A DNA stretch of 36,180 nucleotides from positions 1 to 36,180 of IMG/VR virus record IMGVR_UViG_3300015374_000028; one strand, 5' to 3'. Under the pieces are notes generated by a model. It saw nothing but the letters and a program-made list of their open reading frames with translations. It ran no database searches and was not told the DNA's origin. The position numbers and the translations under genes are program-made. Of this stretch, positions 166 through 35,523 are shown in pieces. How positions within the stretch are numbered: position 1 is the first letter of the stretch; every line of letters starts with the position of its first letter. Origin of the DNA: a virus.

Positions 166-175
166 ATCCTTCCAG

Positions 176-196
176 AGATGTTGCGATGATAAAGAG
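176..196 (+). repeat. 21-bp direct repeat, copy 1
   Basis: AGATGTTGCGATGATAA followed by AGAG matches 390-410 at 20 of 21 positions, and the similarity continues weakly into a following GTAAT. It overlaps the last bases of the dispersed motif at 169. The two copies fall in different reading frames of the open frame across this region, so the repeat acts at the DNA level. Confidence 0.75.
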
Positions 197-389
197 TTGT
201 AATCTAGCCCACACCTCTCTCGGCACACTTTTTTTTCTCTCGCTACCTACCCTGAGTCCTAACTCATACAATTATTCAGACGAGTTCGTCTACACTTTAG
301 TCGTTCTAACAGTTAGGCACGCTTTTCGGAACAAGAAGGAATTCAGTACAAAAGATCGTATACTAGATAATAGAGCGAACAGAAGATGT

Positions 390-410
390 AGATGTTGCGA
401 TGATAAGGAG
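390..410 (+). repeat. 21-bp direct repeat, copy 2
   Basis: Second copy of the repeat at 176-196, with G instead of A at position 18, which makes AAGGAG. It lies about 42 bases upstream of the first confident gene (453). Confidence 0.75.
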
Positions 411-452
411 ATCGTAATATCTATTATTTTTACAGTCCTTTATAGTTAAGGA

Positions 453-1340: not shown

Positions 1341-1355
1341 GAGAATACATTAGCT

Positions 1356-1553
1356 ATGAGTAACGATCTTACTAAAAAGTTAGCACAAATCGGAGCTACA
1401 GCCGTTATAGAAACACAAGATTTCATTTTTCGATCTTATGATACTCCTTTAGCTAGAAGAAATAATGCTATGCTTGAACGTATAACCAAAGCTATACAAG
1501 CTGCAAATATATCTTCCAGAGATTTAGAGGAGATAAAGCATGGAACAGGATAA
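1356..1553 (+). CDS. Small hypothetical protein
   Basis: 65 residues, not recognised. It is mostly helical in character, with no cysteines or membrane segment. It begins 15 bases after the SLOG-like gene with GGAG about 12 bases upstream, and its last codons overlap the next gene by 14 bases, so it belongs to the same operon. A dispersed motif copy (1513) encodes ISSRD near its C-terminus. Confidence 0.6.
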   Translation: MSNDLTKKLAQIGATAVIETQDFIFRSYDTPLARRNNAMLERITKAIQAANISSRDLEEIKHGTG

Positions 1554-1857: not shown

Positions 1858-1858
1858 T

Positions 1859-2101
1859 ATGAATATTATTTCCTTCCAGAATTTATCTCCTCCGAGATGG
1901 TGTATGTCCTGCGAACAAGATTTCGATCCTGATGATCCTTATTTCATGGAAATAATTCTAAAGGACGGAATCTATAAGGTACATCTAAATTGCTTTCCAG
2001 AATTTTGCGCGAATGAAATCCCGAGGAATCTATGGAAGATAATAACACCGTTGTATATAGAGATGATACACATGAGGGCGAGGGGAATACAGCCCCTTTA
2101 A
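1859..2101 (+). CDS. Small zinc-ribbon-like protein
   Basis: 80 residues with CMSCEQDF (C-x2-C) and HLNCFPEFC (H-x2-C), probably a single zinc-binding knuckle pair. It begins one base after the previous stop and overlaps the next gene by 70 bases, so the four genes 1356-2508 appear co-translated. Two dispersed-motif variants (1873, 1995) lie inside it in different frames. The function is not recognised. Confidence 0.55.
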   Translation: MNIISFQNLSPPRWCMSCEQDFDPDDPYFMEIILKDGIYKVHLNCFPEFCANEIPRNLWKIITPLYIEMIHMRARGIQPL

Positions 2102-3445: not shown

Positions 3446-3481
3446 TATTATGTGTATTCTTCCAGAGATAAGGGGCGACAA

Positions 3482-4151: not shown

Positions 4152-4616
4152 ATGACTACGACAGCCGCTCCGAAGAAAACTATCTTTACAGCCGATCCGT
4201 ATGGTGAGACGACTGTTAGAGGAGATATTAGTTTAGGATGGCTTGTTATTATAGGCCATATGTTAGGTTTGGAAGGCGATCTGGAGCATATGGGAATTCA
4301 GGCTCTAAATATGGCTATCAGAGAAGCCTTTCATAAAATCTACATGACTGATGATAAGATTAAGACGATGGCTAAGACTCTTAGAAATAAGGGCTTTACG
4401 TTAGAGACTAAAGGTTTCGATGTTTTAACTAAAGAGATCGGTTATTATATCTGGAAGAAGATAATCCCGATTACATTTGTTGCCAAACAGATATCTAATA
4501 GTCAACATGCTAAAGTAATGGCTATTATGAAAGAAAGTAATCCAGATATAATCAAAGGTACGCAACAAGACATTGTTCGGAGTGTAATGCAGGCTACGGT
4601 TGATCTTACTTTTTAA
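4152..4616 (+). CDS. Hypothetical helical protein
   Basis: 154 residues with AAGGAG eight bases before the ATG, the clearest ribosome binding site of this group. It is largely alpha-helical with no signal peptide or cysteines. It is the last gene before the intergenic promoter/terminator unit, so it probably ends the first operon. Not recognised. Confidence 0.65.
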   Translation: MTTTAAPKKTIFTADPYGETTVRGDISLGWLVIIGHMLGLEGDLEHMGIQALNMAIREAFHKIYMTDDKIKTMAKTLRNKGFTLETKGFDVLTKEIGYYIWKKIIPITFVAKQISNSQHAKVMAIMKESNPDIIKGTQQDIVRSVMQATVDLTF

Positions 4617-6630: not shown

Positions 6631-8321
6631 ATGCTTAAGACGCAATTTCTGGATGGTACTCTTAATAAAGCTATTCAAGATCATGTTATTTCTAGCCTTC
6701 GCGGACAGTCAGATAACGCAAAGAAACCATCTAAATATGCAAAATACACGCGAAGTCCAGTAAAATTCGGGATGCAAGTTCTAGGGGATATCTATACTCC
6801 AGAGATTCAGCGTTTAATGCTGAGTGTGAGAGATAATCCTGTAACTGTAGCAAAAACAGGGAATGCGGTGGGAAAAGTCATGCCGCTGCTAGGATAGCAA
6901 TATGGGCCTTTACTTGCTTCCAGAGAGTTCAGGTCTACCTAGCGGCGGCTCCTCCCGAAAATAATCTGAGAAATATCTTATGGGGTGAAATTAGTAGTAT
7001 AGTAGAAAAACATCCCGAATTATTTGTTGGCTGCGATATCTCGTTTGCTAGCATGTATATTAGACGTTCTAAGCTTGATTTTATCCAGGGATTAACTATT
7101 CCGCTGGCAGGAACACCTCAACAGCGAGAGGCTAAATTCTCTGGAAAGCATAGAGAACACATTTTCTTTATTATTGATGAGGGTGATGCTGTTCCTGATG
7201 AAGTTTATAGAGGAATAGAATCATGTCTCTCGGGTGGTAGTCTGGCAAGATTATTAGTTTTATTTAATCCAAGACGTGCCAGCGGTCCTGTGTATTTTAT
7301 GGAAAGGGATGAAGTTGCGAACGTTGTCGAGATTAATGCTTTATCTCACCCTAACGTGGTTAGTGGGGACAACATTATCCCTGGTGCTGTTACCCGTGAT
7401 ACAACCGTTCGTAGGATTAATGAATGGACTGTTCCTATTCCATTAGGAGATCAGTTAAATTCCGACAGTTTTAAGGTTCCAGAGTACTTAGAGGGATTTC
7501 AGGCTAAAACATATAAGAAAGATGATTTTTATCCTCCCCTTCCTTCTGGGTATAGGAGAGTGGTAAATCCATCGTTTTCTTATATGGTACTGGCTAAATA
7601 TCCTTCCAGAAGTGAGGAGCAGTTAATCTCACAGGAATGGATTGATAAGGCAGTAAGAAATTATAGGAACTATACTAGAAGAACTGGATTATTCCATGTT
7701 CCAGGTATTAGACCAATTATGGGTGTTGACCTGGCGGAAAGTGAACAGGGCGACCTTACGGTTGCGACGCTTCGGTATAATTATTTTGTGGCTCCGCAAG
7801 TTGTTTGGAATGGTATGGATGCTATCAGGAATGGGAATACAGCAGCAGATATTTACATTCCCGCTCACGCTCGATACGCTAATGTGGATTGTTCTGGTTT
7901 AGGATCGGGAACTGTTGTAACCATGATGGGTCGAGGTTGTAAAGCTAATCGCGTTATGGTTCAGTCTGCTGTTAATGAAAAATATCTGACTCAAGAGATG
8001 AAAGATTTAGGGCGGTTTAATAAACTACGCGATCAGATGATGTGGATGATGAGAGAATGGTTAAGGACAGATGAGCACGCTGCAATTCCTGATGATAAAG
8101 ATTTGCATGAAGAACTCATCGCTCCTAACTACGGTAAACATCCTGTCACTGGTAAGATTACTATGGAATCTACTGATGATATTAAAGAAAAGATTGGTAG
8201 ATCGCCAGACCGCTTTATGTCGCTCATGATGACTTTTGCACCTGTGGATGGGGCTTTTAGTTCTGAAGTCCATTCATTCGATTATCTGGGTGGGATAAAA
8301 GATGCCCGTTATCCTTTCTGA
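6631..8321 (+). CDS. terL: Terminase large subunit (needs -1 frameshift)
   Basis: DNA-packaging motor ATPase and nuclease. Codons 1-82 are read from 6631 to AAA at 6874-6876. A -1 slip re-reads base 6876, so AGT follows, and reading continues to 8321, giving about 563 residues. The join recreates the terminase P-loop TGNAVGK-S, followed by HAAARIAIW and YLAAAPP. The Walker B acids are in FFIIDEGD (D183, E184), the coupling segment is LVLFNPR, and the nuclease acids are in MGVDLAE (D367) and NVDCSG (D420). Without the slip, an 88-residue product ends at 6897 with the P-loop but no Walker B. The ORF that opens at ATG 7053 is only the rest of this gene. A missing A in the run would also explain the frame break. 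Confidence 0.88.
6870..6949 (+). promoter_or_regulatory. Programmed -1 frameshift signal in terL
   Basis: The heptamer G GGA AAA (6870-6876) is in the correct zero-frame phase. After a five-base spacer, 6882-6893 (GCCGCTGCTAGG) can pair with 6938-6949 (CCTAGCGGCGGC): 12 consecutive pairs, one of them G-U, enclosing a 44-base loop. A smaller hairpin (6887-6899) competes. The zero-frame stop TAG is at 6895. Slippery site, spacer and stem together match the textbook -1 signal. The function is inferred. Confidence 0.72.
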
Positions 8322-9822
8322 GCAGTTTTATAGTTCTGCTCCCTCTGCTTCAATTCATAGTATCATTAATAATGATAGAAATAAGTATGTTAGTGGTTGC
8401 GATCCTTTAAGATTATATAGAAATTACGTAGAAGGAAAGCAGCAGCAAACTCTAACAATAGGGCAGAGAGAGATTCTACGAGAAGTAATCGGTCACGAGT
8501 TTGCAGATAATGTATGTTTGCAAATTATTGCTGAAGCTGCTGACCGATTAAATATGATTAGATGGACTTGTGAAGATAAGAAAGTTCAAGAGTTTCTAGA
8601 TGCTCTATTTATTACCTCCTCTGTTGAAGATTTTGCAGGAGAAATCCACTTCAATATGATTCAGGATGGTAATCATGTAGTAGCTCTAGGATGGGACCAG
8701 GAAGCACAAAGAGTAACTCTACATTCCGAACCGTGGTGGGATGAAAGAGAAGGAGTATTTATAGCTTACGATGACCTTCGACAGCCTAAATATGGTGTGA
8801 AGGAGTGGTATCCAGGCTATGATGAAGATGGTAATCCCAATGATAATTTGAAAAGAAGGAATATATGGTTTAAGGGTCGTCTAGAGAGATATATTTCTCC
8901 GGGTGGCGGGTCTGAATGGATACCATATTCTCTTCCAGAAGATAACGGTCAATGGCCGCTGCCGTGGAAAAAGGCAGATGGCTCTGATATGGCAATTCCA
9001 TATGTTCACTTTATTAATTCTGGAAAAACAGTAAGAGGAGCGTATGGTAGAAGTGATCTAGCTGGCGGAGTTCTAGGATTTCAGGATCAAATTAATGATC
9101 TACAATATGCTATTACAGCCGCTGCTAGAATGACAGCTTATCAAATGTATACCGCAGCAGGAATTGAACCAAAGAAAGATGCTAAAGGGGATGACTTACC
9201 TCCAGAAGTGGGTCCGGGGCGTTTACTTTGGTCCAGTAATCCTGATGCAAAGTTTGGGAGAATTCCTGCTGGTGATCTCAATCCTTTGCTTTCTGCTTAC
9301 GGTACGAAACAAAGACGTGTAGCACAAATGACCAGAACTCCATTTCACGTTATTTCTGGAGGAGACTGGCCTAGTGCCGATGCATTGAGAATTGCAGAAC
9401 GTCCTGCTGTTCAGAAGGCTAATAGGAACGTAAGAAAAGGAAGAGTAAAATGGTCGGAAGTAGCTCATCGAGCTACGGAAATTAGTAATGCTTTTTCTAA
9501 AGATCAAACTCTGGAAGAAGATGTGGTAAAGGCCCCGATTGTATCGGAGTTTGGGCCTACCGAACGAGTAGAATTCGGCGATATGGCTCAGACTATTCAA
9601 CAGCTAGGTGGTTTTATTTCTCGCAGAGAAGGTCTGAGAAAGATGGGATATAGTGAAAGCAGTGTCGAAAAAATCATCGCCGAAAAGATCAAAGAAACTA
9701 CTGAATTCCAATCCGCCCAAATCGCACGAAACCAATCACAGTTTGATAATAGAAATAGATTCGGACAACAAAATGAGCAAGGAACAGGACCCGATCCAGG
9801 AGCTATTAACAAAAACTTGTGA
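8302..9822 (+). CDS. Portal protein
   Basis: 506 residues, overlapping the terminase end by 20 bases. Size, position directly after terL, and the pattern of an N-terminal acidic/helical region (YRNYVEGKQQQTL), a central beta-rich part and the helical segment FQDQINDLQYAITAAARM fit SPP1 gp6-like portal proteins, which form the dodecameric DNA gate. The C-terminus is Gln/Asn-rich (QSQFDNRNRFGQQNEQG), a common flexible portal tail. GGTGGGA precedes the ATG. The assignment rests on context and overall pattern. Confidence 0.8.
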   Translation: MPVILSEQFYSSAPSASIHSIINNDRNKYVSGCDPLRLYRNYVEGKQQQTLTIGQREILREVIGHEFADNVCLQIIAEAADRLNMIRWTCEDKKVQEFLDALFITSSVEDFAGEIHFNMIQDGNHVVALGWDQEAQRVTLHSEPWWDEREGVFIAYDDLRQPKYGVKEWYPGYDEDGNPNDNLKRRNIWFKGRLERYISPGGGSEWIPYSLPEDNGQWPLPWKKADGSDMAIPYVHFINSGKTVRGAYGRSDLAGGVLGFQDQINDLQYAITAAARMTAYQMYTAAGIEPKKDAKGDDLPPEVGPGRLLWSSNPDAKFGRIPAGDLNPLLSAYGTKQRRVAQMTRTPFHVISGGDWPSADALRIAERPAVQKANRNVRKGRVKWSEVAHRATEISNAFSKDQTLEEDVVKAPIVSEFGPTERVEFGDMAQTIQQLGGFISRREGLRKMGYSESSVEKIIAEKIKETTEFQSAQIARNQSQFDNRNRFGQQNEQGTGPDPGAINKNL

Positions 9823-10174
9823 GGATGAGAAGGTAGTATCTCCTCCTGTAAAGGGGAAAGTTAAACTAAAAGATACTAACTTCTCTTCCAGAGATAAACC
9901 GCGCATTGTAAAAGTGAGGATGGTGATAGATGGATTTTTAGGAGTTCTGGATGGAAAAGGAAATATAGTTCAGGAAATTCCTCTTCAACATATTCCTGGC
10001 AAACAGCCGGTAATTATCTCAACGTTAGATGAAGAAGGATTTGGTCGCGCTTTAGCTGAATGCCTTTCCATCCAGAAATACTATCAAACTGAGATAGATA
10101 AAAGCATAGAATTGGAGAAGGTAAATGAGCGCGACTCTTCAGAGAGCAATCACGCGCGTAATGGACGCAGATGA
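9773..10174 (+). CDS. Hypothetical protein after portal
   Basis: 133 residues from ATG 9773; an in-frame start at 9653 would overlap the portal by 170 bases and add a shadow-like basic stretch, so it is rejected. The N-terminal third is charged and disordered-looking, the middle (VKVRMVIDGFLGVLDGKGNIVQEIPL) is beta-rich, and the end is helical. It overlaps portal and the next gene (50 bases). A motif copy at 9885 encodes FSSRD. Not recognised. Confidence 0.6.
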   Translation: MSKEQDPIQELLTKTCEDEKVVSPPVKGKVKLKDTNFSSRDKPRIVKVRMVIDGFLGVLDGKGNIVQEIPLQHIPGKQPVIISTLDEEGFGRALAECLSIQKYYQTEIDKSIELEKVNERDSSESNHARNGRR

Positions 10175-20114: not shown

Positions 20115-20162
20115 TTCTCTTCCAGAAATAACGAGGCTGTTAGGCCGAGAGAAAGGATAGAA

Positions 20163-20688: not shown

Positions 20689-23600
20689 ATGGCTTCCGAC
20701 GCTACATTAAATGCTAATATAACAGCAAATGATAACGCTTCGAGTGTAATTAGGAACTTCGATAATAATCTCAAATCCGTAGGGAGAACATCCGAGGATG
20801 TAAAAGCTAAACTGCGCGAACTCTATAATGAGTCGCTAGTTCTAAGACGCGCGGGGGAGGCGTTAACCTTTGGGTTAACGGTTCCCCTCGTTGCGTTAGG
20901 TACTGCTGCTATTAATACTGCTACTAGATTTGAGAGTTTAACGCAGGCTCTTAAAATAAATGCAGGCAGTGCTGAAGCAGCTAATAAACAATTTAAGGAA
21001 TTGAGGGAGTTAGCTAAACTCCCTGGTATTGGTTTCGAGGAGGCTATTCAGGGAGCGGTTAGGTTAGAATCTGTAGGTTTGAGCGCACAAAAAGCTGCTG
21101 GATATATGAAGGAATTCTCTAATGCCATCGCTTTGGCGGGTGGGCAGAAGGAAGACCTTTATGAAGTAATGGTTAATGTTCAGCAGATGATGAGCGCAGG
21201 AGTAGTTTCTCAAAGAGAATTGAGAGAAACTTCTCGTCGTATGCCTCAAATCTTCAGTCTACTAAAAGAGCAGTATGGAGATGATCCTGCTAAGAAGATT
21301 AAGGAATTAGGTCTATCTGTTGAGCAGGTAATGGATAGGCTTGTCGAACGTATGCAGAAAATGCCTCGTGCTCCTATGGATACTGCGAGGAATGCGTTCG
21401 ATAACTTTAAGGACTCTGTTAATCAGGCTGCGGCTGCAATAGGACAAACCGCTCTACCAGCTATTACCCAATTTCTGAAAATAATTAATCCTGGCTTGGA
21501 ATTAATGGGGAATTTATTTGCTAAACTCCCTGTTCCTATTCAGGCTTTAGTTGGTGGTTTGGGTTTAGTTGCTGCGGCTGCGGGTCCTGTTATTCACCTT
21601 ATCGGTCAAATTCAGCTTGTATCTCTTGCTTACCAGAGATTTATGTACGACCGCTCTGGTGATGAAGCAAAACAGAAAGCCGAACAGGATAGAATTAATA
21701 ATTCTATTCGTCTAGAAAATGCTTTACTTACCCATCGAACTGCTGTTAATAATCTAGAAGTAGCTGAATATAGAGCAAAAGAGTTACAGAAGACAGCAAT
21801 TGAAAAAGAGCAAATCGCTCAGCGAATGGCTCAGCAAGGTGGCGGTCCAGGTGTTGATAGATTACAGCGGCGGGTAGGAAGTATTTCTGGAAGTATAGAA
21901 GTTGCTTCCAGAGGTATAGAAACTATTGGATTACGGGAAAAACAGCAAGAGCTAACTTTAGAGCAGGCTCTTTTTAAGGAAGAGAAAGCTAAAGAAACAT
22001 TAATTACTGCCGAGGCTGCCAAAGAACAATCCAAAATTGTAGAGGCACAGCGGCGATTAGATTTTGCAAAGCGAGATGCGGACAATAAAGCAGCTACTCT
22101 TAAGAGAACACAAGAAGATAAAGCTATAGCTACTTCCAGAAAAGTAGAACTGGAAGCAGAGTTAAAGCTTAAAGAAAAAGAACTTGCTGATGAGATAGCT
22201 ATGACTAAGCGTGCTGAAGTAGAAATGAATGAAGCACGTTCAGCGCAAAGAGCAGTGGATGAAGCTAATAATAGAGTTGTTTTACAGAGACAAAGAGTAG
22301 CGCAAACTACTGCAAATGTAGAAAGGCTACAAGCTAATCAGGTTGCGGGAGCGGAAGAAGTAGTAGTAGCTTCTACTGTTAACACAGCTAAGACAGAAGA
22401 TGCTGTGTTAAAATTTAAGCAAACTCTTGCAGACGAAGCAGCTATGAATAAGAATTTCGAGTTAGATCGTCTCGCGCAAGAAGGAAAGATTACAAAAGAA
22501 GAATTACAAATAAAGCGTCTCGCTATAGACGAAGAATTAGCTTTAAGAAGAGCTAGTTTGAATTCTACTACTGCTGCTGGAGTAGCTTCTGCTGCTGCTG
22601 TTGCTACTGCTAATGTTCAAGCGGCTACTACTTCTGCAACTGCATGGCAAAAAGTAAAAGGTGCTGTTAGTGGTTGGCTTGGTGGTGGTATAGGTGGGTT
22701 TGGAGCTATCCTCGGCGGACAAATGGCATTAGGCATGCTGCCCGATGGGGGTGTATCGGGGCAGATAAAAGGAGCGGGCAGTAATGCTCTTAATTATCTA
22801 ATGCTCGCTAGTCTAGCAGGTCCTAAAATTGGACCTATGATGACTAACCCGTATGTGTTAGCTGCTATGGCTGCTCCGGTGGTATCAGAATGGTTTGTGG
22901 AAGGGCATGAAAGAAATCAGCAAGGTTTAGACCCAAAAAGAACTCCTGGTGATTGGTGGCGAAATCTTGATCCTCGTAGATTATGGCCCGGTGTTGCTGC
23001 TAAACAGGATGAAGAATGGGCACAAAAACAAGCTGATGAAGCAAAGAATGAAGTACAGGCGAGAATTGCTAGAGAGGGAACTCCTGCTTCCAGAGCTAAA
23101 GCGGCTGCGGCTGCTAAGCAAGTGCAGGATGTATTTGACGAAGAAGAAAAGCGAAGAATTCAGGATAGTCGATATAGGACTAGTTTATCTATAGCTGAGT
23201 CTACTATTTCTGGAGATGAAGATACTAGAGCGCAACAAGAATATAAAGCATATGCTCCTATTATAAAAGAGCGTATGGAGTATCTGAAAAAAGAAGGCGA
23301 CAGACTTTATAAAGATGCGAAAACAGATGCAAAAGCAGCACAGGAAGTTAATAAAACTATTGGCGAGTTCTTTGAAGAGAAAACCAAACTCCAGAAGCTT
23401 CAGCAGGATGCAGAGAACGAACAAAAGGAAAATATAAAGAAGAGTAAAGAAAAGCAAGATAAGATTAATCAAACGCAAAGAGAGGCGATGGCTGCTCAAG
23501 CTGAAGCGATGGTTGCCAGGTTTGCCGACGATCAACAGGATCAAGCCAGGGCAGCAGTAGAAATCCCTCTCCTTCAAAAGCGAATAAAAGAAATTAAAGA

Positions 23601-24579
23601 TCGAATGAAGGCTTTACTTCCTACCATCAAAACTAATAAAGATGATGCACAGGAGTATAACGATCTACAAAAGGAAGGATACGAGAAGGAAAGAGAAGCT
23701 TATGATCTTCTGGGAAGAGGACAAAAGGAAAGAGAACAGAATAATAAGAAGATTGTAGATCAGCAGAGGAGGGATACAGATTCATATTTTGATGCCCTAC
23801 GAGAACAAGCTAAAGCTAGGGTAAATTCAGCAAAAGATGATGTAAAGAAGCAAGCAGAAGCAGAAGTTTTAATTCCTGTTCTTAAGAATGAGCAAGAATT
23901 TCTGTTTAATAAGGCGCAGAGACTTAAAGCAGGAACGGAAGAATATAATAAAGTTGCTAATGATTACTGGAAGTTAGAGGGAGAGATATCTAATATCCAG
24001 ATAGATGCTATAAAGGAACGAGAAGAGAATCAGAAGAAGGCAGAAAGAGAAGCAAAGAAAACAGCCGAGGATCAGCATAACCTTCTTATTCAGAGGACTA
24101 AAACGCAGGAAGAAGCTATTAAGGCTAATCCTTTCCTTAATCCTAGAGAACGAGAACGCGGTCTTGTTAAAGTTCTTATGGAGCGTTATAAGGATATGAT
24201 GCAAGCTGTTTCTGGAGAGACGGAGCTAGAAGCAGAACGACGAAGAACGGAAGCTCAACAAACTAGAAGAGAAATATTCGAAGCAATGGGGATGAATAGA
24301 CGTGGAATGAGAACGTTGGGTGGAGGACCGTTAGGAGGAGCGTTTAATAGAAGAGATATGATGAGTGTCTATAACCAGTTAGGATATATAGATTCTCATA
24401 CTGAACAGAGTAATAATGAAGCGAAACGTATGGCTAATAGAGAAGCTTTAGGTCGTCCTGTTGTATTCCAAATTACGCTCGATCCTAATGCTACACAGGC
24501 TCAGCTCTGGAAGACATTCCAAGAGTGGTTGAATATGATTGCCAGACAGCAATCCTCTAGTCCTATGTATGCGAGGTAA
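20689..24579 (+). CDS. Tape measure protein
   Basis: 1296 residues, the largest gene. It opens like other tape measures (ANITANDNASSVIRNFDNNLKSVG), then has a conserved helical region (FESLTQALKINAGSAEAANKQFKELRELAKLPGIGFEEA). Hydrophobic segments occur near residues 59-75, 285-300 and 665-685 (GGIGGFGAILGGQMALG). The rest is long Ala/Glu/Lys/Gln coiled coil. The length would set a tail of very roughly 190-200 nm by the usual 0.15 nm per residue. It carries three motif copies (21905, 22133, 23087). It starts five bases after the chaperone stop. Confidence 0.92.
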   Translation: MASDATLNANITANDNASSVIRNFDNNLKSVGRTSEDVKAKLRELYNESLVLRRAGEALTFGLTVPLVALGTAAINTATRFESLTQALKINAGSAEAANKQFKELRELAKLPGIGFEEAIQGAVRLESVGLSAQKAAGYMKEFSNAIALAGGQKEDLYEVMVNVQQMMSAGVVSQRELRETSRRMPQIFSLLKEQYGDDPAKKIKELGLSVEQVMDRLVERMQKMPRAPMDTARNAFDNFKDSVNQAAAAIGQTALPAITQFLKIINPGLELMGNLFAKLPVPIQALVGGLGLVAAAAGPVIHLIGQIQLVSLAYQRFMYDRSGDEAKQKAEQDRINNSIRLENALLTHRTAVNNLEVAEYRAKELQKTAIEKEQIAQRMAQQGGGPGVDRLQRRVGSISGSIEVASRGIETIGLREKQQELTLEQALFKEEKAKETLITAEAAKEQSKIVEAQRRLDFAKRDADNKAATLKRTQEDKAIATSRKVELEAELKLKEKELADEIAMTKRAEVEMNEARSAQRAVDEANNRVVLQRQRVAQTTANVERLQANQVAGAEEVVVASTVNTAKTEDAVLKFKQTLADEAAMNKNFELDRLAQEGKITKEELQIKRLAIDEELALRRASLNSTTAAGVASAAAVATANVQAATTSATAWQKVKGAVSGWLGGGIGGFGAILGGQMALGMLPDGGVSGQIKGAGSNALNYLMLASLAGPKIGPMMTNPYVLAAMAAPVVSEWFVEGHERNQQGLDPKRTPGDWWRNLDPRRLWPGVAAKQDEEWAQKQADEAKNEVQARIAREGTPASRAKAAAAAKQVQDVFDEEEKRRIQDSRYRTSLSIAESTISGDEDTRAQQEYKAYAPIIKERMEYLKKEGDRLYKDAKTDAKAAQEVNKTIGEFFEEKTKLQKLQQDAENEQKENIKKSKEKQDKINQTQREAMAAQAEAMVARFADDQQDQARAAVEIPLLQKRIKEIKDRMKALLPTIKTNKDDAQEYNDLQKEGYEKEREAYDLLGRGQKEREQNNKKIVDQQRRDTDSYFDALREQAKARVNSAKDDVKKQAEAEVLIPVLKNEQEFLFNKAQRLKAGTEEYNKVANDYWKLEGEISNIQIDAIKEREENQKKAEREAKKTAEDQHNLLIQRTKTQEEAIKANPFLNPRERERGLVKVLMERYKDMMQAVSGETELEAERRRTEAQQTRREIFEAMGMNRRGMRTLGGGPLGGAFNRRDMMSVYNQLGYIDSHTEQSNNEAKRMANREALGRPVVFQITLDPNATQAQLWKTFQEWLNMIARQQSSSPMYAR

Positions 24580-24582: not shown

Positions 24583-25962
24583 ATGCCTCAGTATACATTA
24601 ACTAGAATAGGGGCAGTAGAGTATTATGGAGATAGCTATCCAACAGCAGATACATTAACAGTAAATGTGGGAGTACTAGAAGCGGGTGTTATATTAATAG
24701 TATTTTTTACAGGATATTTTTACTCTGTTACAGAGTATTTTGGCGACACTTTAGGTTATACTTATTTACCACATGAACTTAATGCTAGAATATTACCTAG
24801 TGATACGCCTAGTGATTTTGCAGTATCAGTAAGAATGGGTACGCCTAGTATTGGTAGTGAAGGTTATAACTGGTCTGCAAATCTAGTAGTGTATAAGCTT
24901 GAAGGTGCTGATCTTTTTGATAGTACTTCTGGTACTATAGCAACCAGGGTTCATAGTGCTGGTTATGATAATGACGACGGTAGTGTTGTTTCAGCAGAGG
25001 AATTATGGACTGCTAGATATAAAAATAATCTAACTGATAAAACAATTTTTGTTATAAGTGAATTTTTTGCTGAAGGTGCTATACAGGTAGATGGAGGTTA
25101 TAGTAAAACAATTGATGAGATGACTCTTGATTACGAGTTTAATGGAAATGGAACTATATCTCCAAGCGCTACTGTACCTTACTATACTTCTGACGGCTAT
25201 CAGCACCATTCCATTTGGTGTAAAGAATTAGCTTATAATGAAGAGTGTGAAGAAAAACTACGATGGGATTACGATACGAGTGATATATATGATCAGAATA
25301 ATGATGCTGTTGGGAGGATGTATCATTATCATCTTACCCATACTATATATTTCTGGTGGTCTGATGGAGGACCGTGGGACCCTAGCCCTGAGCCTGGAAT
25401 GATAGATGTTCTGTATAGTGAATTTGATAAACATAAATATGAAGTAGATGATTGGGATACACATAAAATCTCGTTTAGAACATATAAGGGTGACGGAACA
25501 TTAGATAGGTCGGTAGTTATAGACACTAATACTACGTGTCATCAACCCAGAATATTTGAGTTAGGTAAACACACATTACAGGTCTTCTATAGAAGAGGAA
25601 CGACAGGCTATAAAGCTACTTCCAGAGATAGAGGGAGGACTTGGACTTTGACAACGTTACCTTTCTCTGGAGATATATTAGTATATGAGAGAGCAGGAGC
25701 GTTAGGTAGTTTATCATTTCCTGTTGCTTTAATATATAGTAAATCTGGTAAAACCTGGTCTATTGCAATATATAATAATAGTGCAGATACTTGGTCTTCT
25801 CCTGCTACTATAGCTACAGATGCTAAATTTACTATCGGCAGATTAGTGCAGAAAGGGAGTGGTAATTGGGAGTTTACTTATCAGCAGGACAGCACTGGTA
25901 ATAGGGTTGTAAAGACCTGTAAAAATCTCTCTACTTCTGGAGGGACAGCGACGTTTACATAA
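24583..25962 (+). CDS. Tail tip protein with an Asp-box
   Basis: 459 residues following the tape measure, GAGGT upstream. The N-terminal half is beta-rich and acidic; the C-terminal half looks like propeller blades. SRDRGRTW (residues 347-354) fits the Asp-box consensus SxDxGxTW of sialidase-type beta-propellers, and YSKSGKTWSIAIYN is a degenerate second copy. The position usually holds the distal tail protein. Carbohydrate binding is possible; no catalytic residues can be assigned. The motif copy at 25619 encodes the SRD of the Asp-box. Confidence 0.6.
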   Translation: MPQYTLTRIGAVEYYGDSYPTADTLTVNVGVLEAGVILIVFFTGYFYSVTEYFGDTLGYTYLPHELNARILPSDTPSDFAVSVRMGTPSIGSEGYNWSANLVVYKLEGADLFDSTSGTIATRVHSAGYDNDDGSVVSAEELWTARYKNNLTDKTIFVISEFFAEGAIQVDGGYSKTIDEMTLDYEFNGNGTISPSATVPYYTSDGYQHHSIWCKELAYNEECEEKLRWDYDTSDIYDQNNDAVGRMYHYHLTHTIYFWWSDGGPWDPSPEPGMIDVLYSEFDKHKYEVDDWDTHKISFRTYKGDGTLDRSVVIDTNTTCHQPRIFELGKHTLQVFYRRGTTGYKATSRDRGRTWTLTTLPFSGDILVYERAGALGSLSFPVALIYSKSGKTWSIAIYNNSADTWSSPATIATDAKFTIGRLVQKGSGNWEFTYQQDSTGNRVVKTCKNLSTSGGTATFT

Positions 25963-25966: not shown

Positions 25967-28093
25967 ATGGCTAGAAAATATGCTATCGCTTCAGTCGAAT
26001 TATTCGACGTATTTGAGTTCCAACCTGTAGTAACTGACAGGGGATTCAGCGCATACTCTACTATAAAGAGTGTGCAAGAACGATCTCTATACAATGCTGA
26101 CCTAACAGGAACACCACTTCTGGAATGGATACCCAAACTAGAAGGTATCATTAATAGAGCATATTGGGTAGCGAAAGATACTACTCTAGCTCAATGGAAT
26201 TCTACTGCGGGAGATACTGGTTCTTGGGAAGAACAGGTTCCTGCTTGGGGAGACTATATTGTAAAAAGGTTAGTTCAGTATGATGGTAATCCTAATATTG
26301 TTGGTAAGAGGATTTCTATCTTTAATCTCCCTATTAATCCTGAGTTTGCTATTAGCTTTATCTTACCTGATACGGTTGAAGGACAGGACGTTGATACTCA
26401 TCCCGCTCATATCAGATTTGAGTTTGGACAGTTTCTATGGTGTATATACATAGATAAGAGTGGGGCTTATGTTCAATTCCGTCCTACTACTTCCGACCCC
26501 TGGTCAACTCTGGAAAGAGTAGGGACTCCTAGTCCAAGTGTAGGAGATACCTCGGACGAGAGATTAATTTTTGTGAGATGTGTTTCTGGAGTGATATTAG
26601 TATCAGGTAATTTTGGAGAGAGTTATAAGCTGGCTACAGTAGAAGGAATACCTGTAAATGTTCCATCTAGTAAAGCTAGACTAACTACAGAAGGTGGAAT
26701 TATAGCTTTCGGGTTTCATCAGCTAAAGCAGGCAGCAGGAAAGATAATTCTCGATCCTAAACTAGATACTCTTACTTCCAGAGTACCGGGAACTATGCTT
26801 GATAGTCTGGAGCCTGTTGCTGATATTCCTAGTCCATCTAATTTAATTCTGGTAGATAACTCCGATCCTCTTCATGGGAGAGTAGGATGGGCTGCTGAAT
26901 TAATTCCAGGGGTAATAGGAAGTGCTACAGCAGTTCCTTTCCAGTGGTATAAAACACCGACGTTATATGCAGTAGATACTAAATATGCGGTAGAATCTTC
27001 TACTCCAACATTAAGTAGTACATTCCCTTGGGATGATAATCTTATAGATGTAAATATAATATTGCCTAGAAGTCTAGATCAAACTACAGCCACTTTTCAA
27101 GTACAGGCTCGTTCCGCAGCAGATATTCTAGCAGCAGAAAGCTATAGGGATAGGGCTGTTAGAATACGACTAGGATATGAGCATCATGATGGGTCTGAAG
27201 AATGGTATGTAATGTTCACCGGATATATTACTGATGTTGTTCCGGTGTGGGATGACTATGGTAAGGTGGTTGTTACTTTTGTGTGTAAGAATACATCATA
27301 CCATCTGGAACGAGCAAAGTGGGATGGGTTTGGTCAGTATAGATTAGGTGGTAGAGCTTTAACTGTTGCTGCGGATTTAGTTCTATATACAGAAGGGCTA
27401 GGAGCTACTTCCAGAAGTTGGTTCCCTTTGGGAGATTATCAGATGCTCCCGTGGGGGCGGCAGGACAAGCCCTTTGAGTTAACGAGGGTTAATGAGGAGA
27501 AATGGAAGACGCTCAAGCGGCTCTTTGGCTACTACGGGTATGAATTAGGTGTAGATAACTACGGAATATTCTATTCTCTTCCGTATAATTATTATCTAGG
27601 AACAGTTTCTAAAACCTTTGATGCTAGAGAAACCAGCACTATACAGAACGCTATTACTCGTATAGCTAATAGATATAAATATGAAGAGAGCGCAACTTGT
27701 GTAGTTGTTCATGGTTACGACCAATACGATCAGTTCGTATTGGCAGCTTCGGTAGATTTTGAAGCTGAGCAAAATCCATTTTCGTTAAGAGCAGCCGCAT
27801 GGCGAACTATTATCATAGAGGAATTATTCGATGGAGTAGACTACCCAACAGCGGTAGAGAGGAATATAGCTATTTCCAGAGATGTGTTCCAAACAAAACA
27901 AGAGCCTATTATCACTACTCCAGTAGATGTATCTGTAGGAAGACGCGCACAAGTTATTGTTGATAACTGTGAGCGTGTTAATATACCTTCAGGAACTCAT
28001 ATGGTGATCGCTTCTCTCACCCATCATTATACTCGCCAGCAAGGTCTATCATCTCTGGAAAGTAATGCTGGACTGGAATTGATAGTGACATGA
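25967..28093 (+). CDS. Tail tip hub / baseplate protein
   Basis: 708 residues, AAGGA upstream. Position after the distal tail protein and the segment RIRLGYEHHDGSEEWYVMFTGYITDVVPVWDDYGKVVVTFVCKN (a strand-rich OB/hub-like element) fit the siphovirus tail hub (Tal-like) group that closes the tube and contacts the cell. No peptidase domain is recognised at the end, unlike many Tal proteins. It overlaps the next gene as ATGA. Confidence 0.6.
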   Translation: MARKYAIASVELFDVFEFQPVVTDRGFSAYSTIKSVQERSLYNADLTGTPLLEWIPKLEGIINRAYWVAKDTTLAQWNSTAGDTGSWEEQVPAWGDYIVKRLVQYDGNPNIVGKRISIFNLPINPEFAISFILPDTVEGQDVDTHPAHIRFEFGQFLWCIYIDKSGAYVQFRPTTSDPWSTLERVGTPSPSVGDTSDERLIFVRCVSGVILVSGNFGESYKLATVEGIPVNVPSSKARLTTEGGIIAFGFHQLKQAAGKIILDPKLDTLTSRVPGTMLDSLEPVADIPSPSNLILVDNSDPLHGRVGWAAELIPGVIGSATAVPFQWYKTPTLYAVDTKYAVESSTPTLSSTFPWDDNLIDVNIILPRSLDQTTATFQVQARSAADILAAESYRDRAVRIRLGYEHHDGSEEWYVMFTGYITDVVPVWDDYGKVVVTFVCKNTSYHLERAKWDGFGQYRLGGRALTVAADLVLYTEGLGATSRSWFPLGDYQMLPWGRQDKPFELTRVNEEKWKTLKRLFGYYGYELGVDNYGIFYSLPYNYYLGTVSKTFDARETSTIQNAITRIANRYKYEESATCVVVHGYDQYDQFVLAASVDFEAEQNPFSLRAAAWRTIIIEELFDGVDYPTAVERNIAISRDVFQTKQEPIITTPVDVSVGRRAQVIVDNCERVNIPSGTHMVIASLTHHYTRQQGLSSLESNAGLELIVT

Positions 28094-28951: not shown

Positions 28952-29650
28952 ATGTCGGAAGAGAAAGAACTCGATAAGAAAGATCAGATAAATAAGGGTC
29001 ATATTTATGCTTTAACAACGGAGCATCTATACAGAGAGATGTCATCTCTGGAAGAAAAGATAGATGCTAAACGTATTGGTTTAATGGAATCTATAAAGCA
29101 TATTGTAGAAGGAGAGATAGGAATATTACGAGCACGCTTAGATGCGATGGATAAGGTGTTTATAATCTTTAGTGATAACCTGACTCGCGTACCTACGGAA
29201 ACAGATAAACAGGTAGGGCATTTACGAGATTTGCATAGTGAGAGATTCGAAGCTATAAGGGTGCAGTTTAGTGAGAGAGATACTAGGGCAGATCAGTATA
29301 GTCGTGATAATAGAATAGCTATAGATGCTGCTTTACAGGCAGCGAAAGATGCTTTATCAGAACAAAACAAGTGTTCTTCAGAGGCGATTAGAAAAAGTGA
29401 GTTAGGTTTTCAAAAACAAATAGATCAGCAAGCGGCAATGATTAATACTATAGCTAAAGCGCAAGATGATAGATATGGTGATCTGAAAGAAAGAATAGCT
29501 ATTATAGAAGCATCGGCAGCAGGTAGGCAGGAAGAAAAGAAAGATACACATGCTGGTAGCTCTTTATTAATATCTATTGTTTCTATTGTGATCGCTATAA
29601 TTAGTATAATATCGGGTGTTATCGTTGCGTTAGTGATACCGCACAAATAG
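28952..29650 (+). CDS. Coiled-coil protein with C-terminal membrane anchor
   Basis: 232 residues, GAGGTG upstream. Long helical coiled coil (about 20-200), then one strongly hydrophobic span (LLISIVSIVIAIISIISGVIVALVI, about residues 205-229) ending in a basic HK. A tail-anchored protein beside holin and endolysin suggests a lysis accessory or an anchor protein. Not recognised as a known spanin. Confidence 0.6.
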   Translation: MSEEKELDKKDQINKGHIYALTTEHLYREMSSLEEKIDAKRIGLMESIKHIVEGEIGILRARLDAMDKVFIIFSDNLTRVPTETDKQVGHLRDLHSERFEAIRVQFSERDTRADQYSRDNRIAIDAALQAAKDALSEQNKCSSEAIRKSELGFQKQIDQQAAMINTIAKAQDDRYGDLKERIAIIEASAAGRQEEKKDTHAGSSLLISIVSIVIAIISIISGVIVALVIPHK

Positions 29651-30316: not shown

Positions 30317-30549
30317 GCGGGGCATATGATTTCTGGAAGAGTAAAACATTCTGGACTGCGCTAATTACAACTCTAGCTGGAGCTATCTGGATTTTCGGGT
30401 TCCAGCATAGACAACCTACAGAGGGAGAGATTCAGATCGCAGTAGGACTATGGATGGCAGTATTCGTGAGGGATACTGTTATGAAAGGAGCGGAGATTAA
30501 GGCAGGAGTTCGAGAGGCTGTTAATAAGGACCCTAAAGTAGAAACGTAA
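30313..30549 (+). CDS. Holin-like small membrane protein
   Basis: 78 residues with GGAG upstream. Two hydrophobic segments (TFWTALITTLAGAIWIFGF, about 12-30, and IQIAVGLWMAVFVRDTV, about 40-56) with a charged C-terminus resemble small holins. It sits just before the endolysin. A two-span holin is the likely call. Confidence 0.6.
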   Translation: MSGAYDFWKSKTFWTALITTLAGAIWIFGFQHRQPTEGEIQIAVGLWMAVFVRDTVMKGAEIKAGVREAVNKDPKVET

Positions 30550-30551
30550 TT

Positions 30552-31103: not shown

Positions 31104-31111
31104 AACAGGTA

Positions 31112-31166
31112 CAAAAAAATAGGGGACATTTCCTTCCAGAGATGGAAAGAGATGCCCCCTATTTTT
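31112..31166. terminator. Bidirectional terminator between converging operons
   Basis: AAAAATAGGGG (31115-31125) pairs with CCCCTATTTTT (31156-31166), 11 bp, with A-rich and T-rich ends so it works both ways. The loop can form an inner TTTCC/GGAAA stem and carries a full copy of the dispersed motif (31133-31143). It separates the rightward lysis genes from the leftward ones. Confidence 0.9.
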
Positions 31167-31170
31167 GTGT

Positions 31171-31791
31171 CTACTTAGCTTTAGTATCTGTCGCTAGGCT
31201 CTCAAGAAATGCTTGAGAAATATAGTTTCCGAGCGGTTTATCTTTTATAAATTTACGCTCTCTACCATATCTTAACCATATATCGAACTGTGTTTCTATA
31301 CTACCAGAATTTACTTCGTATGTGTCGCTTGCTTTTACTTTCTTCTTTTCTAAATCATACGTATGTTCGTTAATAACACGAACTGCTCCTGCTTCTTCTG
31401 ACTTATTTTTATCAGGATACACGTAATATTCTGTATTCTTTTTACGCTTCCATTCTTCTAGTTCTTTATTAAGAAGATCACGATCACTATGTATATAAGA
31501 TTCTAGAAAACTTATTTTCTTTCCTATCTCTAACGCATATCTAATCTCTCTACGGGTAGAGCTACCAATGTAACCGAATACATTTACTATATAAATTTCT
31601 TCTGCTAACTCAATTTTACGAAGATGTAATTCGTCTAGTTTATCCTTCACACATTCGGACCAATCGGGTTCTCCCTCGGGTTTCTTCCATACTCCGCAAG
31701 AGAGGACTATGTGTCCTTCCAGAGTTAACTGCTGGTTAACTTTCTCGAACTCTTCCTTAAACCTCGTCGATCCACACAGACAGATAATCAT
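31171..31791 (-). CDS. Nucleoside 2-deoxyribosyltransferase-like protein
   Basis: 206 residues from ATG 31791 (TTG at 31806 would add five). It opens IICLCGSTRFKEEFEKVNQQLTLEGHIVL and has IVNVFGYIGSSTRREIRYALEIGKKI, the strand-turn and GxSTRxEIxxA pattern I associate with the deoxyribosyltransferase/Rossmann family that moves bases between deoxyribosides or cleaves nucleotides. The last 100 residues are an extra region. The neighbouring ThyX supports a nucleotide role. It lies just downstream of a small zinc protein. Confidence 0.62.
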   Translation of the reverse strand: MIICLCGSTRFKEEFEKVNQQLTLEGHIVLSCGVWKKPEGEPDWSECVKDKLDELHLRKIELAEEIYIVNVFGYIGSSTRREIRYALEIGKKISFLESYIHSDRDLLNKELEEWKRKKNTEYYVYPDKNKSEEAGAVRVINEHTYDLEKKKVKASDTYEVNSGSIETQFDIWLRYGRERKFIKDKPLGNYISQAFLESLATDTKAK

Positions 31792-31807
31792 TTGAGTCCA
31801 CTTCAAT

Positions 31808-32035
31808 CTAAAACAAGCTTAACGATGAGTATGCTACTTCTTCCCAGGGAGTTTGTAGAGTTGTTTCGTAAGTCTTCTTGCAAGCTGCACAGTGAACATT
31901 CACCCAACCATGCGGGCCAGTTCCATGTTCTGACCATACTTCCATATCTTTTTCTTCCAGAAATTTACGTAAAGCTAAGAGATGTTCGCATGGAGGATCG
32001 TTATTATAGTAGCCCCACTTAGATTCTTCTGGCAT
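31808..32035 (-). CDS. Small zinc-binding protein
   Basis: 75 residues. PCEHLL, HGWVNVHCAACKKTYE gives C...H and C-x2-C, probably one zinc site. Its ATG shares bases with the ThyX stop (TAATG). The function is not recognised. The motif copy at 31954 runs antisense through it. Confidence 0.6.
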   Translation of the reverse strand: MPEESKWGYYNNDPPCEHLLALRKFLEEKDMEVWSEHGTGPHGWVNVHCAACKKTYETTLQTPWEEVAYSSLSLF

Positions 32036-33027
32036 TAACTTATCTCCGTAATTGTATTATCTTTAATCATATCTCTATGACTTCTCCATCCCTTCAAGTT
32101 ATGCACATATTTGCTTTCAGAGATAGGCATAGCCTGATGCTCTGTAGGGCTAACATGTCGAGGTGTATTTTCTATTAGTCTACAGTACAAGTTAAGGTCT
32201 TCCTCGTAAGTAAACTCCTTTCCCTCGTAAAGTAAAAGAGAAGTTCTCGCGCATCTAGCTGCGGAGATAGCAAAAGCTAGAAGTGATAGATTATTCTTAT
32301 CTTTTATGCAGTTATTTACTAGATTTAAGAATTTATTATTTACTGCAAGACTAGCACCAGGATGTGCTGACATACGTCCGTATGTAGATATTAAACTTTG
32401 TTTCTCATCAAATGATCTCATAAATGGTATATGAGATGAATATACAAAAAAATCTCCTGGGCTTCTAGGAGCAGGTATCCTCCTTAAGTACTCTTTCTTC
32501 ATCATCCTAGCCATTTTAGATAACTCTCCCTGTGCTGCGGAATGATCGCGTAAGGCGAAGAAATTAGCATATCCTTCATCCGTTCCTGTAATAACCTCTC
32601 TTACCCATTGATAAGGTGCTAAAACTCTATTAGCTATTTGTTTATGGACACCTAGAGATATTAACTCCTTCGCATGAGCTATAGCATCTAATCTTCCTCT
32701 TAGCCATACTTCTTTACACTGATCGTATTCTTTACTCCCAAGTTCATAAAATCCCTCTGCTTGCATCCCTTTTTGTTCGATAGGGAATCTTTCTGGAATG
32801 AAAGGGTCCTCTTCTACCATCTGTATAATTCGTTCTGTGCGAATGGTTCTATTAGAAGCAACAGAGCGAGAGAAACATCTATGGCGGCAGAACTCCGCAT
32901 GGACAATAAGAGGATACTTTAACTCGAACGTAGTAATTCTATCACCCGTTATCTTATTAACGGAGTCGGCTATAATCTCGTATTGATAACCCTTCTGTTC
33001 TTCTGGAATAGGCGGTAACTCTGCCAT
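32035..33027 (-). CDS. thyX: Flavin-dependent thymidylate synthase, permuted order
   Basis: 330 residues. It makes dTMP from dUMP with FAD and folate. The signature RHR-x7-S is at 48-58 (CRHRCFSRSVAS); strand FELKYPLIVHAEF precedes it; FIPERFP (76-82), LGVHKQIANRVLAPYQWV (125-142) and ALRDHSAAQGEL (158-169) follow, equal to the dUMP-binding part of known ThyX. The block AARCARTS ... HVSPTEHQA (256-299), which lies at the N-terminus in Thermotoga ThyX, is at the C-terminus here. GGAG precedes the start. The protein is longer than the usual 220-250. Confidence 0.85.
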   Translation of the reverse strand: MAELPPIPEEQKGYQYEIIADSVNKITGDRITTFELKYPLIVHAEFCRHRCFSRSVASNRTIRTERIIQMVEEDPFIPERFPIEQKGMQAEGFYELGSKEYDQCKEVWLRGRLDAIAHAKELISLGVHKQIANRVLAPYQWVREVITGTDEGYANFFALRDHSAAQGELSKMARMMKKEYLRRIPAPRSPGDFFVYSSHIPFMRSFDEKQSLISTYGRMSAHPGASLAVNNKFLNLVNNCIKDKNNLSLLAFAISAARCARTSLLLYEGKEFTYEEDLNLYCRLIENTPRHVSPTEHQAMPISESKYVHNLKGWRSHRDMIKDNTITEIS

Positions 33028-33029
33028 CT

Positions 33030-33380
33030 TTATTTCTTCTCCTGTAGCTGGTCTATCTTACTGCTATCTTTCTGTAACTCTTCCATATGTCCCTTCATCC
33101 CATCTACCGCCATCTTCTGTGCTATATTGTTTATAGCGTTATTAAGGGCAAAAGAATCTACTCCCTCGGGAACGGAGATACATATAGCAGGCTGTACCTT
33201 CTCTCTCATGCAAGATACAGTAATACGGTCTATTATATCTGCTATTTGGTCTCTTATATACGGGAATGGTATCTCAAATCTTATTCTTTCTAAATCCTTT
33301 ATCCATCCTTTTGATTCTAATTCTTGGAGCCTGGTTATCTTTTCTTCCAGAGTTATCGGGTTCGGGTGTGTGATTGCCAT
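33030..33380 (-). CDS. Hypothetical protein overlapping primase C-terminus
   Basis: 116 residues, helical, with AAGG before the ATG. It overlaps the end of the primase-helicase gene by 107 bases in another frame and ends two bases before ThyX. The stretch VQPAICISVPEGVDSFALNNAINNIAQ is the only compact part. Not recognised. A motif copy (33344) lies in the overlap. Confidence 0.55.
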   Translation of the reverse strand: MAITHPNPITLEEKITRLQELESKGWIKDLERIRFEIPFPYIRDQIADIIDRITVSCMREKVQPAICISVPEGVDSFALNNAINNIAQKMAVDGMKGHMEELQKDSSKIDQLQEKK

Positions 33381-35523
33381 TAGGGTTGACCTTCTTCTTA
33401 ATCTTAAATTTCTTCGCTAAAGTAATAGGCTCTATAGGAGTAACATGCCCGTTAAGATCATTCTTAACTTCTACTTCTATAGGAGCGGTAGTTTTAATTT
33501 CGAATCCCGCTTTTACCCATAAATCTTTAATCTCTTCTTCCAGGTAATAATGACTAACAGGACGACCTATCTCTCCTGTTTTATGTGTCTCGACTCTTAT
33601 AACCTTAAGGAGAACTAGATCATCCACATGTAGCTTAACCGTTGTTTTAGGAGTAGCGAGTAATTTAGCTATCTCATTAAGGTCTAGACCATCTCTCTCT
33701 ACTAACACATTAATGATCTTAAGGTTCCATTCCGAACAACTATCTAGAGCTACTTTTCTTATTACGCGAAAGTCATCTTCTGTCACCTCTGCCGGGTATC
33801 TCTGGAGAGCAAGTGCTACCATTAATTTATGTAACTGTATAGCAATCCTACTCCCTAACTCATGCATGGGCTGATATAAAATAGTGTCCTTATACGGGTC
33901 CCGATCTACCGCCGCCCGAAGGTAGGCGACAACTCTGGAAAGAGCTACGATCTTTAAGACATAATCTACTGGTATTAATGGGTAATCCTCTTCCTTTATC
34001 TTATACTCTAAGAAAGATTTAGCCGCTTTATGGAGTACCTCTTTCATCATTACTTGCTTTCCAGAATTGGATATGGCGGCAGTAATTAGGATGTTCTCGT
34101 GCTCCGAGTTCATCTCTGGAAGGCGAAATGTTAATGACCGCTCTCCCATTGTAGTATTACTTTCCGCAAAGAGAACATTCGTAACACCTGCTGCCATAGT
34201 AAATTGACCCGTGTATTCTCTCATAATACCGGAGCCAAAATCTCTCTCTACTTTACCATCAAATGCCCCTCGGAGAACAGCATATACTTCTTCCTTTTGT
34301 TGTTTACCCATCTGTAGAACTTCGGTGAAGTCCTTAAGTATCAGGGTTTTCCCTATAAGTTTAGGGATAAGGCTAGGGTCTTTCCCGACCTTCCATCCTG
34401 ATACTAACGTAGGACGACTTACCGTCGATCTGTTGACGCAGCAGGTTACTTCTGAAGTAGAAGTTAGTAGCTCGCTTTTCCCATATCCGGGCGGTCCAGC
34501 AATGAATAACCATAATGGGCATCCCTCTAATTGATTAGATATGACTACTGCGAATATACAACGCAGAGCGTCTATAAGGGTTTGGGTAAAGAAGAGATAC
34601 TTTCTATATATGTCTATTATTTCTTCCAGAGGTGGTCTCTTACCGGAAGAGAGCAGAGGGTATTCATCTATAGGATTACCTTCAGCTACTTCTTCCAGAG
34701 ATAGATCATCTTCTGGACGAAACTTCTTGATGAACTTCTTTAACTCTTTGAGAGGCTGTCCTGATTTATAGAAGTCTCGTATATCAAACCCGTCGGGTAA
34801 TCCTTCGGGCCAGTATATCTTCTTAACTTTAGGACAGATATTCAAGAGTTTACTAGCAGCCTTCGTTCCTCCTTTCTCCCCATCTATGTCGTTATCATAA
34901 CAGATAACAACATTCCTACCTTCCAGGGGTTTGATCCATTCATCTCTGAAAGAGTTAGCTCCTGGTACTCCTATCGCAACTCCCTTTGTTCCTAATAATT
35001 CCTGCAAACATATCTGATCCCATTTTCCCTCGGTTAAGTATATCGGACATTTTGGATCGTATTTATGTAATAGGTCTAGCCCGATAAGGTATTGTCCCAT
35101 TCCTGTTAACCCCATAGGCTTCGGTTTCTTAGCCTGAGGATCATAGAATAGGAGATTTACCATCGTTCCTTTCTCATTACGAACTGGTATAATCCATTGC
35201 CCATGTTCGTATACTAGACCATGATGTTTAAGGAGTTCTACAGAAATATTCTTGTGTTCGGATAAGTCCTCCCAGGGGAACGAAGCATGATTCTCCCATA
35301 GCATTTCATAGCTCTGGTTAAGGAAGTTATAGATATTCCCTTCACTACCGCAAGACGCAGATTTGCACTGGTATTGTCCTGTTGTTCTGTTAACGTAAAA
35401 CTTATTTGACTTTCCGCAGAAGGGACAGTCGCCATAATGATTTCCTCCTGATTCTCCTACAGGATCAAATCCTAGCTTCTCAAATACTGGAAGATAGTTT
35501 CTATCTACTTTAGATTTCGGCAT
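33274..35523 (-). CDS. Primase-helicase (zinc, Toprim, AAA+, winged helix)
   Basis: 749 residues. Zinc-binding cysteines C33, C36, C53 and C58 (CPFC ... CKSASC) as in CHC2-type primases. A Toprim domain with IYLTEGKWDQI and VVICYDNDIDGEKGG. Then a P-loop (FIAGPPGYGKSELL), a Walker B-like TLILKDFTEV, and a possible arginine finger GERSLTFRLP. Near residues 620-660 lies a winged-helix segment (LNEIAKLLATPKTTVKLHVDDLVLLKVI). The tail is basic. The helicase half does not show the RecA-like DnaB motifs; SF3- or MCM-like AAA+ is more likely. It would unwind and prime at the phage fork. AGGTAGG lies upstream. Confidence 0.8.
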   Translation of the reverse strand: MPKSKVDRNYLPVFEKLGFDPVGESGGNHYGDCPFCGKSNKFYVNRTTGQYQCKSASCGSEGNIYNFLNQSYEMLWENHASFPWEDLSEHKNISVELLKHHGLVYEHGQWIIPVRNEKGTMVNLLFYDPQAKKPKPMGLTGMGQYLIGLDLLHKYDPKCPIYLTEGKWDQICLQELLGTKGVAIGVPGANSFRDEWIKPLEGRNVVICYDNDIDGEKGGTKAASKLLNICPKVKKIYWPEGLPDGFDIRDFYKSGQPLKELKKFIKKFRPEDDLSLEEVAEGNPIDEYPLLSSGKRPPLEEIIDIYRKYLFFTQTLIDALRCIFAVVISNQLEGCPLWLFIAGPPGYGKSELLTSTSEVTCCVNRSTVSRPTLVSGWKVGKDPSLIPKLIGKTLILKDFTEVLQMGKQQKEEVYAVLRGAFDGKVERDFGSGIMREYTGQFTMAAGVTNVLFAESNTTMGERSLTFRLPEMNSEHENILITAAISNSGKQVMMKEVLHKAAKSFLEYKIKEEDYPLIPVDYVLKIVALSRVVAYLRAAVDRDPYKDTILYQPMHELGSRIAIQLHKLMVALALQRYPAEVTEDDFRVIRKVALDSCSEWNLKIINVLVERDGLDLNEIAKLLATPKTTVKLHVDDLVLLKVIRVETHKTGEIGRPVSHYYLEEEIKDLWVKAGFEIKTTAPIEVEVKNDLNGHVTPIEPITLAKKFKIKKKVNPNGNHTPEPDNSGRKDNQAPRIRIKRMDKGFRKNKI

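Follow-up and report, generated by a model that had tools for sequence, protein, structure and literature searches.

A dispersed, asymmetric DNA word on both strands of an uncultured soil phage genome

Why does a phage genome repeat one short DNA word dozens of times? The question was raised by virus record IMGVR_UViG_3300015374_000028, a stretch of 36,180 nt (hereafter, the window) from an uncultured soil phage. Its layout is siphovirus-like: the late genes (terminase, portal, capsid, tape measure, amidase endolysin) form a rightward operon, and the replication genes run leftward. An initial annotation had counted the word by hand, and its counts proved exact: 27 forward and 7 reverse copies of the 8-mer CTTCCAGA, 9 and 2 of the 11-mer CTTCCAGAGAT, and 15 forward copies of CCAGAGAT, which also occurs 6 times in reverse. 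We show below that the phage carries a dispersed, asymmetric DNA word with the consensus TTTYCTTCCAGARNT, randomly placed along both strands, and we infer that it is a recognition word read by some machine.

The forward excess had been taken as a genome-wide polarity, possibly a replication or packaging signal, a view to be abandoned if the complete genome lacked strand bias. We therefore looked at the complete genome. A single near-identical IMG/VR contig, IMGVR_UViG_3300015371_000027 (67,071 bp), was retrieved with the portal and primase proteins. It matched the window at 99.8-99.9% identity in two blocks arranged as a circular permutation, and its ends overlapped each other over 445 bp at 94%; thus the phage map is a circle of ~66.6 kb. 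The two assemblies represent essentially one phage strain, with ~38 differences that lie mostly close to the ends of the longer contig. In this genome, the 11-mer occurred 13 times forward and 12 times reverse, and TTCCAGA 62 and 47 times (109 copies). The 8-mer occurred 41 and 27 times (68 in total), for which equality of strands was not rejected (binomial p 0.11). The bias on which a replication or packaging signal would rest thus vanished. What remained was a difference between arms: CTTCCAGA stood at 21:6 (forward:reverse) in the late arm and 20:21 in the early arm (Fisher p 0.02), and an imbalance as large over any 36-kb arc had a p of 0.02 if orientation was random. Polarity is therefore confined to the late-gene arm, as a local tilt that accounts for the 27:7 of the window, and genome-wide polarity is unsupported.

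A trivial origin of the word would be composition, codon or amino acid preference, without any recognition. The phage does prefer AGA for arginine, and the commonest sense frame of the word reads Ser-Arg. Nevertheless, shuffling synonymous codons within genes left ~24 copies of CTTCCAGA, and no more than 30 in any of 200 shuffles, whereas the genome has 68; this understates the excess since spacers were left unshuffled. Markov controls were exceeded as well. Enrichment was roughly 12-fold for CTTCCAGA and exceeded 20-fold for CTTCCAGAG. Codon context pointed the same way. The serine codon ahead of AGA was TCC in 29 of 38 cases versus 97 of 1094 elsewhere, the leucine codon ahead of GAA was CTG in 30 of 71 versus 133 of 1360, and the proline codon ahead of GAG or GAA was CCA in 26 of 69 versus 129 of 777. 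Even the tripeptide SRD, encoded by TCC AGA GAT, occurred 15 times for 3.9 expected. The word thus shapes codon choice and, slightly, protein sequence, as expected of a force acting on DNA. Since copies also occupy every frame, both strands and spacers, a by-product of coding preference is refuted for practical purposes, in line with what the initial annotation had argued.

The word has a strict core, TTCCAGA, and is asymmetric. On the 5' side, the core is preceded by C (68/109) or T (28/109) and, before that, by a T-rich stretch; on the 3' side come G or A, any base, and then T (94/109). The strong form YTTCCAGARNT numbers 82 copies in the complete genome (45 forward, 37 reverse), that is, ~1.2 per kb. 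One-base variants of the core stayed at about background level, with CTCCAGA and TTTCAGA mildly in excess. Two of the differences between the assemblies, at window positions 30178 and 36158, gain or lose a core through an exchange between TCTAGAA and the core-bearing TCTGGAA at the same motif position, which indicates that single copies are dispensable.

We then considered how copies are placed (Table 1). Copies occupy each of the six frames, sense and antisense, though unevenly. Relative to genes, CTTCCAGA was found 28 times in sense and 22 in antisense, and TTCCAGA 43 and 42 times. Fifty of the 68 CTTCCAGA copies lie fully within called genes; genes were called by a simple codon score that missed some small ones, so several "intergenic" copies sit in open reading frames (ORFs). 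Spacing was random (coefficient of variation 0.97; largest gap p 0.23), and so was the orientation of neighboring copies. The segments free of TTCCAGA in the window, 4.45-6.92 kb and 9.89-13.56 kb, are compatible with such spacing, and the proposal that copy-poor segments are younger loses its footing. Because it is asymmetric, randomly spaced and equally frequent on sense and antisense strands, the word acts at the level of DNA. A signal read in RNA was rejected, sense and antisense copies being equal. Two copies had been placed before starts: the one at 20119 indeed lies in a spacer ahead of a start, whereas the one at 3459 falls just within a GTG-started ORF. A copy assigned to a terminator loop does stand, in its full form, at the tip of a strong terminator-like hairpin between convergent arms (31110-31172; -30.5 kcal/mol, z -6.6).

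Few dispersed recognition words of such strength are known: uptake signal sequences and DNA uptake sequences (USS/DUS), the highly iterated palindrome HIP1, Chi and the FtsK-orienting polar sequences (KOPS). For calibration, 66 comparison loci, each 10 kb or longer, were scored for their best 8-mer over the first 15 kb. The mean was 6.0, with two clear exceptions, the Planktothrix phage PaV-LD (HIP1, GCGATCGC; 20.6) and one IMG/VR contig with CTGGCCAG (15.1). The soil phage scored 21.5 when its whole genome was taken and 9.3-11.0 in individual 15-kb segments; the Haemophilus phage HP1, with its USS, scored 15.6 over 32 kb. In density, CTTCCAGA reached 1021/Mb, compared with 656/Mb for the USS AAGTGCGG in HP1 and 540/Mb for GCGATCGC in PaV-LD. 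In these two phages also, the word sits on both strands, with a strict core and no halo of near misses. Separately, we noticed that the palindrome CTGGCCAG occurs 8 times in 14.6 kb of IMG/VR contig 3300030027_000035 (L130), for 0.25 expected, as a HIP-like iterated word.

The initial annotation had mentioned Chi-like sites and uptake sequences, and both turned out to be relevant comparisons. With the USS of Haemophilus influenzae and HP1, the soil phage word shares its asymmetry, a length of ~9-12 bp, presence on both strands in genes and spacers, a strict core, carriage by a phage and a similar class of density. Near-equal over-representation on both strands, typical of USS/DUS, was found here (11-mer 13/12, TTCCAGA 62/47). 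The sequence is different, however, the soil phage is possibly lytic, and a link to uptake and competence would be by analogy. Pasteurellaceae phages accumulate USS, with saturation near 750/Mb, which was interpreted as phage-host coevolution (PMC6776037); the density of the soil phage exceeds this value. HIP1, at about one copy per kb, has been linked to methyltransferases and mismatch repair (PMC4390886). The soil phage likewise has about one copy of its word per kb, genome-wide and with a strict core, as PaV-LD has of HIP1, and it encodes a DNA methyltransferase; yet HIP1 is palindromic with known methylation sites, whereas TTTYCTTCCAGARNT is asymmetric, with flanks.

Two characterized phages with the same signature, HP1 and PaV-LD, carry the word of their host, and a host machine is therefore the most economical reader. 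On these analogies, we tentatively favor a host imprint, uptake- or HIP-like, which we consider somewhat likelier than a word of the phage's own making. The word would belong to the host as a recognition sequence, acting on whatever DNA its cell contains, either an uptake sequence, as USS is in Haemophilus phages, or a HIP-like methylation or repair word, as HIP1 is in PaV-LD. A DNA-handling machine of the host would favor or protect DNA bearing the word, and phage lineages would thereby gain and keep copies.

Several observations weigh against a host imprint. No integrase was recognized among the phage proteins searched; the phage may therefore be lytic, and USS are scarce in those Pasteurellaceae phages that are large and likely lytic (PMC6776037). 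The searches, moreover, returned neither a host nor a second virus with the word among the matches listed. Among the matches listed from two IMG/VR pattern scans, this phage alone was dense in the word: no second motif-dense virus appeared among 258 other viral loci, the best other locus having 0.5 strong copies per kb as compared with 1.2 here. When 85k species genomes were scanned with a 16-mer, none of the 117 matches listed formed a dense stretch. In 1,272 sampled genomes (241-287 per phylum, from Patescibacteria, Chloroflexota, Acidobacteriota, Verrucomicrobiota and Actinomycetota), long-pattern matches numbered at most 4 each, which is background level; the 66.6-kb phage itself has 7 matches to the 15-mer pattern and 16 to the 13-mer, and a 3-Mb genome at phage density would have several hundred. 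Nor did phage genes point to a consistent host: the terminase is nearest to Salinibacter phages (39%), the endolysin and portal to actinobacterial phages, and the DNA polymerase and methyltransferase have mixed relatives. The 8-mer, searched as a string in the literature, led to no relevant paper. Incidentally, GACTTTGG was seen 11 times, in a single orientation and often spaced by ~135-160 bp, in two contigs, L134 (7259-9888) and L114 (9715-12096); it is probably an intragenic repeat.

The same failure to find another carrier speaks for a phage-made word, that is, the site of a phage DNA-binding, recombination, replication or methylation protein with many sites on its own genome, in a host without the word. 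Candidates are at hand: among the products of the phage genome are PolA, a primase, a Sak4-like recombinase, a Cas4/RecB-like nuclease, an SNF2 helicase, a helix-turn-helix (HTH) protein and a DNA methyltransferase of the N6/N4 type. The HTH gene lies at L013:19040-19480 and the methyltransferase gene at L013:12407-13765. We know of no phage protein, though, with a need for 80-110 sites in 66 kb, within genes on both strands. The closest solved relatives of the methyltransferase are DpnA, CcrM and RsrI, whose sites are short and mostly palindromic, and the word was absent from 29 IMG/VR contigs with a terminase 39-53% identical. A phage-made site is thus possible but, in our view, doubtful. 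The same doubt applies to the broader notion of a host-independent, phage-encoded marking of the whole genome, in which a phage protein of recombination, replication or methylation would read the word at USS-like density, imposed strongly enough to shape the proteins of the phage; we regard it as rather unlikely.

Like Chi, the word is asymmetric, of octamer scale and enriched in a phage genome. As a Chi-like site, it would halt a RecBCD/AddAB-type nuclease of the host and recruit recombination, and the phage might gather copies for protection or concatemer formation. Indeed, Chi is over-represented in phages that have no RecBCD inhibitor (PMC3784561), the late arm shows its tilt (21:6), and the headful-type circular permutation suggests concatemers. 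Conversely, the genome as a whole had no bias of strand with respect to replication or packaging (41/27, p 0.11, and 13/12), with the early arm at 20:21. Lambdoid Chi is over-represented about 3-fold (PMC3784561), several times less than the word of the soil phage, which also differs in sequence. The phage has a Sak4-like recombinase of its own, and no candidate host with the word emerged from the searches made. We therefore hold a Chi-like role to be improbable. Poorer still is the case for stoperators, asymmetric ~13-bp sites scattered over mycobacteriophage genomes, at which an immunity repressor binds and stops transcription. The soil phage word is of similar length and similarly scattered, and an HTH protein is encoded. 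Stoperators, however, sit in promoters and short spacers, oriented with transcription, and roughly twenty were reported in L5 (PMC9283540). Here, copies are several times more numerous, equally sense and antisense, and mostly intragenic, some of those outside called genes lying in uncalled ORFs; a repressor-bound site is very improbable.

Other features of the phage were noted along the way. Directly upstream of the first motif copy, window 106-166 holds five tandem, exact copies of the 11-bp word TATGTTTTACA. At most ~100 bp to the left of window base 1 (L012; reversed contig 36449-36524), palindromic TACTTAGTACTA / AGTACTTAGTAC units form a cluster; separating the early arm from the late one, it may be an operator or origin. 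The terminase large subunit (window 6631-8321) is encoded in two frames, and the break falls exactly within the Walker A motif (TGNAVGK / SHAAA), in both assemblies alike. A canonical -1 slippery heptamer, G GGA AAA, lies at 6870-6876, with a strong hairpin a few bases 3' (-42.7 kcal/mol over 101 nt, z -3.3). This has the appearance of a programmed -1 frameshift that terminase synthesis would require. Finally, a papain-like peptidase gene (window 4787-6625) contains an intein (Pfam Intein_splicing).

Table 1. Positions of the word in the window
Motif	Position	Strand	Remark
CTTCCAGAGAT	169..179	+	exact match
CTTCCAGAGAT	1513..1523	+	exact match
CTTCCAGA	1873..1880	+	exact match
CTTCCAGAGAT	3459..3469	+	just within GTG-started ORF 3452-3880
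CTTCCAGA	4450..4457	-	exact match
CTTCCAGA	6917..6924	+	exact match
CTTCCAGA	7603..7610	+	exact match
CTTCCAGA	8932..8939	+	exact match
CTTCCAGA	9510..9517	-	exact match
CTTCCAGAGAT	9885..9895	+	exact match
CTTCCAGAGAT	14554..14564	+	exact match
CTTCCAGAGAT	14851..14861	+	exact match
CTTCCAGA	15922..15929	+	exact match
CTTCCAGA	17380..17387	+	exact match
CTTCCAGA	17885..17892	+	exact match
CTTCCAGA	18129..18136	+	exact match
CTTCCAGA	20119..20126	+	spacer ahead of ORF at 20163
CTTCCAGA	21886..21893	-	exact match
CTTCCAGA	21905..21912	+	exact match
CTTCCAGA	22133..22140	+	exact match
CTTCCAGA	23087..23094	+	exact match
CTTCCAGA	24506..24513	-	exact match
CTTCCAGAGAT	25619..25629	+	exact match
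CTTCCAGA	26775..26782	+	exact match
CTTCCAGA	27408..27415	+	exact match
CTTCCAGAGAT	29044..29054	-	exact match
CTTCCAGA	30332..30339	-	exact match
CTTCCAGAGAT	31133..31143	+	part of terminator-like hairpin 31110-31172
CTTCCAGA	31716..31723	+	exact match
CTTCCAGA	31954..31961	+	exact match
CTTCCAGA	33344..33351	+	exact match
CTTCCAGAGAT	34112..34122	-	exact match
CTTCCAGA	34623..34630	+	exact match
CTTCCAGAGAT	34692..34702	+	exact match

As the history of the 27:7 count illustrates, strand polarity judged on a partial viral contig can mislead. The word itself provides a sequence tag with which the host of this uncultured soil phage, or other phages of that host, may be spotted in metagenomes. 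If our reading is true, it would also point to an undescribed system of DNA uptake, repair, recombination or marking in that lineage.

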